Source: an uncultured Bacteroidales bacterium (GTDB taxonomy: Bacteria > Bacteroidota > Bacteroidia > Bacteroidales > Paludibacteraceae). Taken from it: 61,976 nucleotides of DNA. The stretch spans positions 1 through 61,976 of the forward strand of contig CADCBB010000008.1 in NCBI GenBank assembly GCA_902799555.1, written 5' to 3'. A model generated the notes under the pieces. The model had not been told where the DNA came from and ran no database searches. It saw only the letters and a program-made list of their open reading frames with translations. A program made the position numbers and the translations under genes. This document shows positions 8,664 to 15,258 of the stretch, piece after piece (the first letter of the stretch is position 1; every line of letters starts with the position of its first letter).

Positions 8664-9278
8664 CTGAAGTCTTACATGATATCAGGGCTGATTGAGGCCG
8701 GTTGCGATGAAGCGGGACGGGGGCCGTTGGCAGGGAGTGTATTTTGCGCGGCAGTGATACTCGATCCGGCGAAAGTGGAGCTGGTGCCGGAGTTCGCATG
8801 GCTCAATGACTCCAAGCAGTTGACCGAGAAGCAACGCGAGGCGCTTCGACCGGTCATCGAACGGGAAGCAGTGAGTTGGGCGGTAGTCGAAGTGACGGCG
8901 CAGGAGATCGACGAGCGAAACATCCTGCAATGTTCTATTATCGGCATGCAGCGGGCCTTGGATAAGTTGACCGTTCGGCCGCAACATATATTGGTGGACG
9001 GCAATAAATGGAAACCCTACGTGCCGGAAGGAGAGCTGCTGGAGATACCCGCCGATACCGTGGTGCATGGCGATGCCACCTATATGAGTATCGCGGCGGC
9101 AAGCGTGCTGGCCAAGACCTACCGGGATGACTACATGCTGCGGCTCCATGCCGAGTATCCGCAGTACGGCTGGGATAGCAACAAAGGCTATCCGACCGCC
9201 GAACATTATGCGGCACTGAAGCAATACGGTCCGACGCCGTACCATCGCTTAAGTTTTAACCTAAAGTTAAAACGTTAA
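8661..9278 (+). CDS. rnhB: Ribonuclease HII
   Basis: 205 residues. It cleaves the RNA strand of RNA-DNA hybrids and removes misincorporated ribonucleotides. The signature CDEAGRG (Asp16, Glu17) is intact, followed by LNDSKQLT, ILVDGN (third acidic residue) and AASVLAKTYRD. Length is typical. It lies 27 bases after tamL in the same operon. Confidence 0.97.
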   Translation: MLKSYMISGLIEAGCDEAGRGPLAGSVFCAAVILDPAKVELVPEFAWLNDSKQLTEKQREALRPVIEREAVSWAVVEVTAQEIDERNILQCSIIGMQRALDKLTVRPQHILVDGNKWKPYVPEGELLEIPADTVVHGDATYMSIAAASVLAKTYRDDYMLRLHAEYPQYGWDSNKGYPTAEHYAALKQYGPTPYHRLSFNLKLKR

Positions 9279-9330
9279 ATGGTTAAATAGTTAAAATGGT
9301 TTTTATTGCATAAAAACGTTAAATAGTTAA
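9252..9330 (+). repeat. GTTAAA repeats with nested hairpin
   Basis: GTTAAA-type units (TTAACCTAAAGTTAAAACG, GTTAAATGGTTAAATAG) flank GTTTTTAT-TGC-ATAAAAAC (9299-9306 with 9310-9317), a perfect 8-bp stem with loop TGC. The copy reads ..TTAAAATG, hairpin, GTTAAA... It overlaps the end of rnhB and fills the gap to sppA. Confidence 0.85.
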
Positions 9331-9335
9331 GTGAT

Positions 9336-11105
9336 ATGATTTTCTTTTCTCGTCAAAACGCGCAGGGCGAACAACGTCCTCGTCGCAGAGTAGGCTGCCT
9401 GGGTGGCTGCCTCATTTTCTTCGCGGTGTATTTCTTATGCAGCGCTATCATCGGATGGATCATGGGCGATGCTTTTTCCTCGTCCACCGTGGACCTCAAG
9501 GACCAGACGGTCTATCGTCTCGAGCTGAAAGGGACGCTGGTAGAGCAGGCACAGGAGGAGTTACCCTGGGCCTCGATGATCAGTTCTGTGCCGTACAGCA
9601 GTTATGCCAAGCAGGATAACGTAGGTCTGGATCAGATCCTGAGTAACATCCGTCTGGCGAAGAACAACGATAAGATCCTCGGTATCTGGTTAGACGGCGG
9701 TCAGCTATCGATGGCGCCGGCGAGCGCCAAGGCGATACGCGATGCGCTGATCGACTTCAAGACCAGCGGCAAATGGGTGATCGCTTCCGCGAAGAACTAC
9801 GGTCAGACCAACTACTACCTCGTTTCGGTAGCCGACCGTATCTGCCTCGACCCGACGGGAGAGGTGAACTGGAACGGTCTTACCGCGCAGAAGATGTACT
9901 TCACCCGCCTCATGGAGAAGATCGGCGTAGAGATGCAGATCGTTAAGGTAGGTACCTTCAAGTCCGCCGTAGAACCCTATTTCCGTACCTCCATGTCCGA
10001 TGCCGATCGCCTGCAGACCATGCAGTACTTGAACGGTATCTGGGATGAGTACAAAGCCGCTGTGGCTGCATCCCGTCACCTGACGGAGGCGCAACTCAAT
10101 GCTCTCGCCGACCGCTACATGGGGCTGCAGAGTGCGGAAGAGAACCTCAAAGCCGGTCTTGTGGATACCATCGTCTATTGCCAGGATATGGACTCCTTGC
10201 TGCGCGTCTATACCGGCACTAAGGACTACCATATGCTCACGACCGATAAGTTGGCGCAGGTGAAGCGTCCGGACTCCAAGGCCAAAGATAAAGTAGCGGT
10301 GCTCTACCTCGCCGGCGAGATCACCGATGAGGAAGGAGACGGTATCGTCGGCAAAGAGGTCGTTAAGACCCTCAAGAAGATCGCCAAGGACGATGATGTC
10401 AAGGCCCTCGTGCTGCGTGTCAACAGTCCGGGCGGTTCGGCCGATGCCAGTGAACAGATCTGGCATGCGATCCAGAAGATCAAAGCCGACAGCATCCCGG
10501 TAGTCGTTTCGATGGGTGACTATGCCGCTTCCGGTGGTTATTACATCTCCTGCGGTGCGGATTATATCTACGCCGAGCCGACGACACTCACCGGTTCGAT
10601 CGGTATCTTCGGTACCATCCCGAATGCCGCCAAGCTGCGCGATAAAGTGGGCCTCGATATCGACGGCATCAAGACCAACAAGCATGCGGACCTGGAGGCG
10701 AACATGATCTACAAAGGCATGAATGCAGAGGAGTTTGCTTTGATGCAGACCATGGTAGAGCGCGGTTATGACCTCTTCACCGGTCGTTGTGCCGAAGGCC
10801 GTCATGTGAGTCAGGACTATATCAAGTCCATCGGCGAAGGACGTGTTTGGTTAGGCGTCCGCGGTAAAGAGATCGGTATCGTCGATGAAATCGGAAATAT
10901 CAACGACGCGATCGCCAAGGCGGTCGATCTGGCCGGACTCGAGTGCTATCAGTTAGCCTACTATCCTGAGAAGACCGATCCGTACGAAGAGTTGATCAAG
11001 CTCTTCGACAACACGACGGACGAAGAGAAGATGATCCTCAAGATAAAAGATTTCTGTTCCAAGCCGCGTATCATGGCAAGGATGGATGACATTGTCATCC
11101 GTTAA
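9336..11105 (+). CDS. sppA: Signal peptide peptidase SppA, 67K type
   Basis: 589 residues, the long duplicated form. It digests cleaved signal peptides in the inner membrane. One transmembrane segment lies at about residues 28-48. The N-terminal half holds the general base lysine in VGTFKSAVEP (Lys209) and the C-terminal half holds the nucleophile in DYAASGGYYIS (Ser399), so the Ser/Lys dyad is complete. PGGSADASEQIW is also present. It is in the tamL operon; upstream and downstream gaps are filled with GTTAAA repeats. Confidence 0.97.
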   Translation: MIFFSRQNAQGEQRPRRRVGCLGGCLIFFAVYFLCSAIIGWIMGDAFSSSTVDLKDQTVYRLELKGTLVEQAQEELPWASMISSVPYSSYAKQDNVGLDQILSNIRLAKNNDKILGIWLDGGQLSMAPASAKAIRDALIDFKTSGKWVIASAKNYGQTNYYLVSVADRICLDPTGEVNWNGLTAQKMYFTRLMEKIGVEMQIVKVGTFKSAVEPYFRTSMSDADRLQTMQYLNGIWDEYKAAVAASRHLTEAQLNALADRYMGLQSAEENLKAGLVDTIVYCQDMDSLLRVYTGTKDYHMLTTDKLAQVKRPDSKAKDKVAVLYLAGEITDEEGDGIVGKEVVKTLKKIAKDDDVKALVLRVNSPGGSADASEQIWHAIQKIKADSIPVVVSMGDYAASGGYYISCGADYIYAEPTTLTGSIGIFGTIPNAAKLRDKVGLDIDGIKTNKHADLEANMIYKGMNAEEFALMQTMVERGYDLFTGRCAEGRHVSQDYIKSIGEGRVWLGVRGKEIGIVDEIGNINDAIAKAVDLAGLECYQLAYYPEKTDPYEELIKLFDNTTDEEKMILKIKDFCSKPRIMARMDDIVIR

Positions 11106-14016: not shown

Positions 14017-14052
14017 AGGTTTAAGGTGAAAGGTTAAAGGTGAAAAGGAAAG
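14015..14052 (+). repeat. Short repeat (GGTGAAA/GGTTAAA) supplying the mnmA start
   Basis: Units AAAGGTTT, AAGGTGAA, AGGTTAAA, GGTGAAAA, GGAAAG run from the end of the ABC gene into the mnmA GTG start at 14040. Confidence 0.7.
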
Positions 14053-15104
14053 TTTTATTAGGAATGTCCGGCGGTATCGATTCGACCGTCAGCGCCATGC
14101 TTCTTTTGGAGCAGGGGTATGAGGTCATCGGCGTCACCTTCCGTACGTACGACTCGATGAAAGAGAGTTGTATCGCCAAAGAGAAAGGGTGCTGCACGAT
14201 CGACTCCATCATGGAGGCCAAGCGCAATGCTGAACGCATGGGATTTGCGCATCATATCGTCGATTTCCGCGACACTTTCAAGCGCTGCGTCATCCAGAAC
14301 TTTATCGACGAGTACATGGCCGGTCGTACCCCGAATCCCTGCGTGCTTTGCAACAGTACCATCAAATGGGGCGAGATGCTGCACCTGGCCGATGAGATGG
14401 GGTGCGACTATATCGCTACCGGTCATTATGCCCGCATCGCCGAACGCGACGGCCATGTCTATCTGCGCATGGGAGTCGATACGAAGAAGGACCAGACCTA
14501 CTTCCTATGGATGCTTACCGAAGCGCAACTCCGACGCACGATCTTCCCCTTAGGCGACCTCACCAAGGACCAGGTACGCGAGATAGCGCGTCAGCACGGC
14601 TACGAAAAGCTGGCGGTCAAACGCGAGAGCCAGGAGATATGCTTCATTCCGGACGATGACTACCGTGCCTTCCTGCGCGCGAACGTGCCTGATTATAAGG
14701 AACGCGTACACGCGGGCGAGTACGTGGACGCGAACGGCAAGGTGCTGGGCTATCACGAAGGCTACGTCAACTACACCATCGGTCAACGCAAAGGCCTCGG
14801 TATCGCCCTCGGTCATCCCGCCTATATCACCCATATCGATGCCGCCTCCAACCGCATCACCCTCGGCACCAACGACGATATGTATGCCACAGAGCTGCGA
14901 TTTGAACCGTCGTCATTACGTCATGACGTCATGTCGTCATCCGGATTAACCGCGAAGGTTCGCTATCGTTCCCAGGCCGTTCCCGTGATAAAAATAGACG
15001 GGAATTGCATCGAATTTGCAACTCCCGTCTGGGGTATCACTCCCGGGCAATCGGTCGTGATCTATTCCGACGATTTAGTCGTTGGCGGCGGAATCATACT
15101 GTAA
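14040..15104 (+). CDS. mnmA: tRNA-specific 2-thiouridylase MnmA
   Basis: 354 residues. It adds the 2-thio group to U34 of tRNA-Lys, -Glu and -Gln. The PP-loop GMSGGIDST is at about residues 8-16, catalytic cysteines lie in NPCVLC and EICFIPDDD, and the MnmA insert TPNPC plus ATGHYARI are present. A GTG start is chosen because no ATG gives the residues before the PP-loop. The GTG sits in a short repeat. Near the C-terminus a CGTCAT repeat (14908-14940) inserts SSLRHDVMSSS before the final barrel. It is the last gene of the operon. Confidence 0.95.
   Translation: MKRKVLLGMSGGIDSTVSAMLLLEQGYEVIGVTFRTYDSMKESCIAKEKGCCTIDSIMEAKRNAERMGFAHHIVDFRDTFKRCVIQNFIDEYMAGRTPNPCVLCNSTIKWGEMLHLADEMGCDYIATGHYARIAERDGHVYLRMGVDTKKDQTYFLWMLTEAQLRRTIFPLGDLTKDQVREIARQHGYEKLAVKRESQEICFIPDDDYRAFLRANVPDYKERVHAGEYVDANGKVLGYHEGYVNYTIGQRKGLGIALGHPAYITHIDAASNRITLGTNDDMYATELRFEPSSLRHDVMSSSGLTAKVRYRSQAVPVIKIDGNCIEFATPVWGITPGQSVVIYSDDLVVGGGIIL
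14908..14940 (+). repeat. In-frame ~8 bp repeat in mnmA
   Basis: CGTCATTA, CGTCATGA, CGTCATGT, CGTCATCC units encode SSLRHDVMSSS between conserved MnmA segments. Confidence 0.7.
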
Positions 15105-15258
15105 ACGTTAGAATGGTCGCTATGCGACGTTAAAGAGTTAAAATGGTTTGCAACGTTAAAATAGTCTGCGACGTTATTTCTCGCTGCATAGTAACGTGCG
15201 AAGCACCATCTTAACCATTTAACGTTTCCTAAAATGAAACCATATTAACTGTTTAACG
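15105..15258. repeat. Cluster of GTTAAA/hairpin composite repeats between mnmA and rubrerythrin
   Basis: This gap between convergent genes is almost wholly repeat. On the plus strand, AATG-type units precede GTCGC-TAT-GCGAC (15116-15128), GTT-TGC-AAC (15146-15154) and GTC-TGC-GAC (15164-15172), each followed by GTTA(AA). On the minus strand, similar flanks enclose GTGC-TTC-GCAC (about 15195-15205) and GTTTC-ATTTTAG-GAAAC (about 15225-15241). No standard T-tract terminator was seen; the opposed copies could form a long imperfect stem acting on both genes. Confidence 0.8.

Follow-up and report, generated by a model that had tools for sequence, protein, structure and literature searches.

Gene-boundary arrays of perfect hairpins with constant linkers and covarying stems in a Paludibacteraceae genus, with arms possibly made by inverted DNA copying

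The stretch of DNA analysed here, referred to as the window, comprises 61,976 nucleotides (nt) from an uncultured Bacteroidales bacterium of the Paludibacteraceae (contig CADCBB010000008.1), and is the 62-kb contig C8 of its source genome, a 2.34-Mb draft in 82 contigs that is 86% complete. Between its genes lie arrays in which short perfect hairpins alternate with constant linkers built on GTTAAA, and these arrays are a real family of gene-boundary elements, found in one genus within the genomes searched. The best explanation, to which we would give about an even chance, is that the hairpin arms are made and kept by inverted copying at the DNA level. Intergenic palindromic repeats as such are known, whereas constant linkers combined with variable stems are new here, and searches of open-licence literature listed no description of the element, as judged by titles and the beginnings of abstracts. 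Covarying stems are usually taken as evidence of RNA function, while in this case, with hardly any wobble intermediates and with an extension into the ends of coding sequences, they are possibly a product of DNA copying. If so, the arrays would allow the birth and rewriting of palindromes to be followed in nature, would serve as a caution to RNA discovery based on covariation and would give a handle on the turnover of intergenic DNA between closely related bacteria.

A preliminary description of the window had reported seven hairpins with a common plan. All seven are present, with positions right within a base, and they are members of larger mosaic arrays squeezed between stop and start codons, following the plan hairpin-GTTAAANN-GTTAARATG-hairpin and so on; the 8-nt GTTAAANN unit is repeated in places, an 8-nt spacing of GTTAAA is frequent, and the flanks of each hairpin are direct repeats. 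With a loose pattern and a stem condition, the window gives 8 matches (overlaps counted), as against none in 99 of 100 dinucleotide shuffles and one in the remaining shuffle. The excess extends to the whole 2.34 Mb, where a pattern of the anchors only, which forces GT...AC and no further pairing, has 38 matches and its reversed form none. Reading those inserts by eye shows a flush hairpin with a loop of 3 or 4 nt in 37, and in the remaining one a T-G pair next to the loop; re-reading by script found 28 flush among 30 loci, one not flush and one not parsed, and eight typed inserts were all flush. In two-armed arrays the arms point towards each other across a short centre that GTTA and TAAC delimit, and several of them have ACTATGCAGCG there, a motif that has 11 matches in the genome, at least one being inside a gene far from any array. 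Among arrays with gene context, 23 two-armed ones are oriented '+-' and none '-+', 11 arrays being without context. Most arrays lie within some tens of bases of a gene's stop and of the following gene's start, and the single-direction arrays between co-directed genes (n = 115) are weakly biased, 71 following the genes and 44 opposing them, in counts where related loci were only partly collapsed, as also in the gene-end and stop-codon counts below.

Over all loci, 214 of 271 anchor inserts are perfect hairpins, compared with a mean of 2.2 after shuffling the insert letters; some of these loci were fetched with GT...AC forced, and the shuffles do not keep the forced ends. Restricting the count to genus-type loci, by excluding 23 loci from unrelated taxa or random pattern matches here and in the gene-end counts, leaves 254 inserts, with 207 perfect, 10 carrying one mismatch (A-C in six, G-T in two, other in two), 30 carrying more and seven too short. 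Over all loci there are 62 different stems. Among 158 loops of three nucleotides T comes first in 155 and C last in 135, mostly as T-N-C. The complementary strand of these loops reads G-N-A, and G-N-A loops form a very stable class of DNA mini-hairpins, according to the available text of PMC6479982 (citing Hirao 1994 and Yoshizawa 1997), a class to which the array loops may be related on that strand. Stem G+C falls from 0.69 at 4-5 base pairs (bp) to 0.26 at 8 bp, so that hairpin stability is partly evened out, with computed energies of -0.1, -1.2, -3.2 and -4.8 kcal/mol at 3, 4, 5 and 8 bp.

The claim that the stems differ while pairing is kept and the flanks stay constant is borne out by two length classes, whose rows were picked without a stem condition: 27 rows with 13-nt inserts and, with 19-nt inserts, 25 of 39 distinct 34-mers, the other 14 being dropped because the insert was a shorter hairpin continuing into the next unit. 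In the 13-nt class 98.5% of 135 cells are paired, with 23 changed on both sides, one on one side and two unpaired, and in the 19-nt class 96.5% of 200 cells are paired, with 30, none and seven, respectively. Together, 53 of 335 cells changed on both sides, as against one one-sided G-U state and nine unpaired cells. In either class, none of 500 shuffles reaches the real share of paired cells, the number of cells changed on both sides or the score for covariation, and controls slid along the sequence reach at most 61.5% paired and a score of at most 0.156, compared with 0.483 (13-nt) and 0.413 (19-nt). Two of five whole-structure measures in the 13-nt class (154 and 115 of 500) and one in the 19-nt class (131 of 500) stay within the shuffle range, the number of pair types not going beyond it in either class. 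Because GT...AC or, in the genus search, G...C was forced, the one or two pairs at the outer end of a stem do not count as independent evidence; the covarying pairs lie inside them. RNA helices that drift through G-U pairs would be expected to leave more one-sided states, which is an expectation and not a comparison with an RNA yardstick. The near absence of such states suggests that whole stems are replaced, and replacement of whole stems or correction of arms at the DNA level fits the covariation better than G-U drift.

In some arrays the first hairpin draws on the final codons of the gene beside it, and the stop codon falls within the loop or one of the arms, which points to backward copying of DNA at gene ends. 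Over 1657 gene ends, stop-codon hairpins whose 5' arm belongs to the gene have stems of at least 8 bp in 10 cases, compared with a mean of 0.9 (maximum 4) expected from permuted spacers, with the genus member L184 left out; the corresponding numbers are 16 against 2.5 for at least 7 bp, 23 against 7.8 for at least 6 bp and 59 against 26.1 for at least 5 bp. Among 112 gene ends that precede a sense array, the stop lies in or at the loop in 11 and within the 5' arm in three, the hairpin overlaps the gene end otherwise in 16, and it lies wholly after the stop in 14. The solid cases include sppA, rnhB and rubrerythrin in the window. One series is given by a gene ending GGx-ATG-ATG-stop, which we take from this end to be groEL, and in which the constant ending means that the 5' arm is fixed by the protein. 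Its inverted copy TCATCC(C) follows in G313, G239 and G221 among 12 readable ends (30 loci), and likewise in G000 (own locus L346). All ends bearing the copy use GGG, and the other nine use GGA (five), GGC (three) or GGT (one); G239 and G221 have no GTTAAA array directly after the gene. At another site, junction B, three of 18 loci hold ATGACAGT-ATA-ACTGTCAT, ATGACAGT-TTA-ACTGTCAT and ATGACGGT-ATA-ACCGTCAT with no GTTAAA array there, and in each the right arm matches the codons of its own species.

Regarding distribution, searching the 178 genomes of the genus for a pattern with a single forced pair gives matches in 78, with 0 to 40 places per genome, as against six matches in total for the reversed pattern. 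In the family, 16 of 150 genomes match, with hairpin copies in the source genome (38) and in G134 (9), and the other 14 have one or two matches each, within the range of the reversed-pattern control. Of 14 matches outside the genus, three contain an insert that can form a stem of 3-4 bp around a loop of at most 5 nt, which may be chance, GT...AC being forced. Genomes of GTDB gave at least 113 stretches, at least 96 titled Paludibacteraceae or Bacteroidales and mostly from ruminant-gut assemblies by name. Placement against the source genome succeeded for 17 of the 42 array clusters, and placed arrays were shared and absent in 5 and 6 cases (G264-G000), 4 and 3 (G313-G000) and 6 and 2 (G264-G313). 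Where an array is absent, the site holds a clean stop-start junction (L351 for L291, L330), other repeats (L163, L159) or other sequence. Shared arrays are identical at 253 of 257, 408 of 415 and 360 of 375 aligned sites, compared with 87.3, 93.6 and 84.1% in their flanks, in a pool of those pairs taken as shared that have under 40 gap columns (4 of 5, 4 of 4 and 6 of 6). At site A, hairpin arrays occur in four of 31 tree rows, scattered over the tree (two rows without data); their labels need several changes and do not cluster, so that gain and loss are not distinguishable, and a stem was swapped at the same site, since G190 and G220 have a common first hairpin and a different second one. Exchange of short tracts between species is likely a part of this history, for which reason selection alone is not a safe reading of how closely shared arrays agree, and short-tract recombination may be an alternative explanation of the presence and absence of arrays.

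Comparable junctions in relatives hold further repeats. At the mnmA 3' junction (L253-L282) and at junctions A, B and C (L353-L382), many species carry a different short repeat spacer or none, the alternatives including CCTAGG, ACCTTTC, AATTGATA, TTACCATT and others, and throughout the genus intergenic repeats appear to undergo rapid exchange. Another hairpin family, with a linker close to TAAAAGANTAAAGACC and short hairpins with TGC, TTC or GAA loops, was seen at L357, L372, L377, L382, L263 and L279. In two species (L274, L275), short repeats of the ATCAATCATCAATC type apparently lie within the C-terminal part of mnmA.

The explanation by inverted copying can be put as follows. An array is a mosaic spacer between stop and start, whose linker (GTTAAA-NN-GTTAARATG) is A/T-rich and constant and whose hairpins are perfect and largely free in sequence. 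The arms of each hairpin would be made and kept identical when synthesis switches template or snaps back at short hairpins with loops of 3 nt. Copying could begin on the last codons of a gene, leaving the stop codon in the loop or an arm; arrays would then spread between species by short homologous exchange, and might be retained because they often close every frame of both strands with stop codons and set a hairpin where the gene stops. Template switching that homogenises the arms of inverted repeats likewise yields identical arms at the DNA level, in coding DNA too, but it is presented in the available text of PMC8604942 and PMC7202029 as a general mutational process, without linkers or a fixed genomic position. 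The preliminary description had left the choice between a selected structure and a mobile or copying process; copying is favoured by the near absence of G-U and one-sided states, by arrays running in both directions and by 3' arms that are inverted coding codons, and mobility in the sense of transposition is less probable. A bolder version, that a dedicated or strongly biased copying process in this genus writes palindromes at gene ends from the last codons, adds linker-hairpin units and continually rewrites gene boundaries into hairpin arrays that are constrained in structure and free in sequence, with the GTTAAA, TAAAAGANTAAAGACC and other dialects as products of the same process, is speculative, and we would expect it to fail rather than to hold.

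Several points weigh against copying. It is read from standing variation and not from an observed event, and a template switch leaves the origin of the constant linker and the recurrence of T-N-C loops unexplained; the stop-codon hairpins themselves have loops other than T-N-C. GTTAA follows six of the 10 longest of them (stem at least 8 bp), the gene-end sample includes orthologous junctions, so that its ends are not all independent, and 68 of the 112 gene ends have no perfect hairpin before the first GTTAAR (51 of these having at most 3 nt before it). Of the 16 overlapping cases, we read nine as solid and seven as weak, the latter either because the frame runs on into the array (L133, L114, one of L171) or because one arm base only lies in the gene (L375, L079, L097, L002). 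In 460 kb of the source genome, hairpins with a stem of at least 5 bp and a 3-nt loop are 2.4 times denser between genes than inside them, and 160 of the 190 intergenic ones are away from GTTAA; the profile of hairpins at stops and starts over the same 460 kb gives a weak and unspecific signal. Moreover, shared arrays may be so alike through recent exchange and not through selection: at site A, G264 and G159, which are not sisters in the tree, differ at one position and are flanked by no fewer than 13 and 14 identical bases.

A function in RNA, where hairpins at stops or between cistrons would block exonucleases or stall ribosomes as the repetitive extragenic palindromic (REP) sequences of Escherichia coli do, the stems being maintained by compensatory substitutions, is in our view rather unlikely as the main cause, although it could act alongside copying. 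The arms do covary, shared arrays are closer than their flanks and arrays abut stop codons. The two-armed element of the window also folds better than its shuffles (z of -3.3 as RNA and -3.4 as DNA), but a second one reaches only -1.8, and the best folds pair linkers across the arms and leave several unit hairpins unformed; the opposite direction of 44 of the 115 single-direction arrays and the scarcity of G-U or one-sided states speak against it as well. An intrinsic terminator, with a G+C-rich hairpin and a T run directly after it, was not recognised on reading the sequence, as GTTA, part of the anchor, follows each hairpin inside the arrays; separate T-tailed hairpins adjoin some arrays (L343, L306, L335). 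At the gathering score, Rfam found no family in window positions 8600-16000; Hrs13 at 12254-12389, inside the ABC (ATP-binding cassette) transporter gene, scored 28.2 bits where 52 are required and is probably chance. Coding of a peptide was dropped, as the frame of the stop changes between hairpins of 9, 11, 13, 17 and 19 nt. A role as gene-boundary spacers is plausible, given that all frames are closed on both strands in 64.7% of 156 arrays (21.9% in shuffles), that the arrays provide the stop codon of several genes and place hairpins at stops, and that E. coli REPs at most 15 nt from a stop codon are reported to stall ribosomes, according to the available text of PMC12306157.

Mobility is less probable still: the arrays would be non-autonomous elements, similar to REPs or miniature inverted-repeat transposable elements, moved in trans by a transposase such as P0001, which resembles the REP-associated tyrosine transposases (RAYTs). 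Dispersed copies, the strictly inward two-armed forms, whole arrays present or absent with clean empty sites and the RAYT-like protein in the genome would fit. P0001 scores 20-21 bits for the Pfam family Y1_Tnp, under the cut-off of 23, and carries what we take to be the HUH and tyrosine motifs; of the 178 genomes of the genus, 131 contain a relative (E 1e-10). As mover P0001 was rejected, because 30 loci around it and its relatives lack the GTTAAA hairpin unit; a plain GTTAAR run occurs at a distance of 0.6-1.4 kb in two of them (L224, L240), and most of the flanks read, those of P0001 and seven relatives, hold other palindromes. Conversely, G225, 73% complete, has 11 hairpin matches and is not among the 131 genomes with a relative. 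Transposition of whole units was rejected too, as hairpin and linker letters assort nearly independently, the linker NN being common to 46 of 267 pairs with the same hairpin (17.2%) and 2635 of 19244 with different hairpins (13.7%), and no target-site duplication was seen by eye. A phage origin was also dismissed, since 2.9 million viral contigs, plasmids not being searched, gave six matches and no hairpin with a loop of at most 6 nt. Least probable of all, and only barely credible, is neutral slippage, in which arrays of the 8-nt GTTAAANN grow and shrink with hairpins as functionless by-products. It would account for the 8-nt spacing and for other 7-9 nt repeats at the same junctions in sister species, but slippage yields direct repeats and not perfect palindromes with 62 stems, and shared arrays are 96-98% identical over aligned sites where most other short spacers from comparable junctions give poor alignments. 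Long promoter-type regions align at 0.90-0.95, and one G264-G313 spacer with a shared array at 0.85.

Hairpins of integron attC sites lie between inverted core sites (RYYYAAC...GTTRRRY), which is not the case for the array hairpins with their directly repeated flanks; gene neighbours are apparently kept at the mnmA junction and at junctions A-C in the loci read. The arrays have features in common with REPs, bacterial interspersed mosaic elements and GTAG- or CGTC-tagged repeats, which, in the available text of PMC3733652, are likewise short dispersed intergenic palindromes, single or grouped and often in inverted pairs, with families that include subsets with different stems. In REP families the stem recurs and is tagged by GTAG or CGTC, while the arrays have constant linkers, variable stems and no linked transposase: GTTAARATG and GTTAAR flank 62 stems in place of an unpaired tag, and P0001 is followed by GTCGGATATCATCCGAC-type palindromes, not by the hairpins of the arrays as a RAYT would be by its REPs. 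At L183, positions 1336-2640 (G000:C6), P0001 precedes several copies of the palindrome ACGTTCGTCCATTACGTCGGATATCATCCGACATC, which by eye resembles CGTC-tagged REPs; the available text of PMC3733652 reports no RAYT flanked by CGTC-tagged REPs. The TAACTGA repeats of Beggiatoaceae, cyanobacteria and some Bacteroidetes, for which translational regulation has been suggested, are likewise short direct repeats at gene boundaries whose length is not a multiple of 3 nt, which can overlap stop codons, close all frames and are patchily distributed, as described in the available text of PMC4679880. The arrays too form tandem gene-boundary units that close all frames, but with the 8-nt GTTAAANN in place of a 7-nt unit, and that text contains no hairpins with covarying arms. 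Hairpin elements of sponge mitochondrial DNA are likewise divergent in structure and composition, intergenic and scattered among relatives; they are organellar, and the available text of PMC2800124 mentions neither a constant-linker grammar nor stop-codon hairpins.

Within the window, the arrays are set among rnhB, sppA, lpxK, the gene for an MsbA-like ABC transporter and mnmA, with rubrerythrin on the opposite strand, the gene calls being simple longest open reading frames. Their parts are collected in Table 1.

Table 1. Parts of the hairpin arrays mapped in the window
Feature	Position	Strand	Remark
Hairpin GTTTTAAC-CTAAA-GTTAAAAC	9253..9273	+	within last codons of rnhB
Linker units GTTAAATG GTTAAATA GTTAAAATG	9274..9298	+	
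Hairpin GTTTTTAT-TGC-ATAAAAAC, then GTTAAATA	9299..9317	+	
Hairpin GGATGAC-ATT-GTCATCC	11084..11100	+	made of last sppA codons, abuts first GTTAAA
Linker units GTTAAAAT GTTAAAAC GTTAAACG GTTAAAATG	11101..11133	+	
Hairpin GTGC-TTC-GCAC	11134..11144	+	overlaps predicted lpxK start (ATG 11131)
Outer linker GTTAGAATG	15107..15115	+	3' of mnmA stop
Hairpin GTCGC-TAT-GCGAC	15116..15128	+	
17-nt linker GTTAAAGAGTTAAAATG	15129..15145	+	
Hairpin GTT-TGC-AAC	15146..15154	+	
Short linker GTTAAAATA	15155..15163	+	
Hairpin GTC-TGC-GAC	15164..15172	+	
Centre GTTA...TAAC, motif ACTATGCAGCG on minus strand	15173..15195	.	meeting point of two inward-facing arms
Hairpin GTGC-TTC-GCAC	15196..15206	-	
17-nt linker, minus strand GTTAAATGGTTAAGATG	15207..15223	-	
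Hairpin GTTTC-(7 nt)-GAAAC	15224..15240	-	7-nt loop
17-nt linker, minus strand GTTAAACAGTTAATATG	15241..15257	-	
Hairpin GCGTTACTT-TGGG-AAGTAACGC	15258..15279	-	rubrerythrin coding sequence in one arm, stop codon in other

The three gene-end hairpins of the table, at rnhB, sppA and the rubrerythrin stop, go beyond the seven copies first reported, as does the recognition that positions 15107-15279 form a single two-armed, inward-facing array. The stop codons of rnhB (TAA, 9276-9278) and sppA (11103-11105) are provided by the GTTAAA that follows the respective hairpin, in sppA the first one. Further along, at 15845-15897, an 8-nt repeat TCTTTCAT/TCTTTCAC adjoins the next gene in five overlapping copies.

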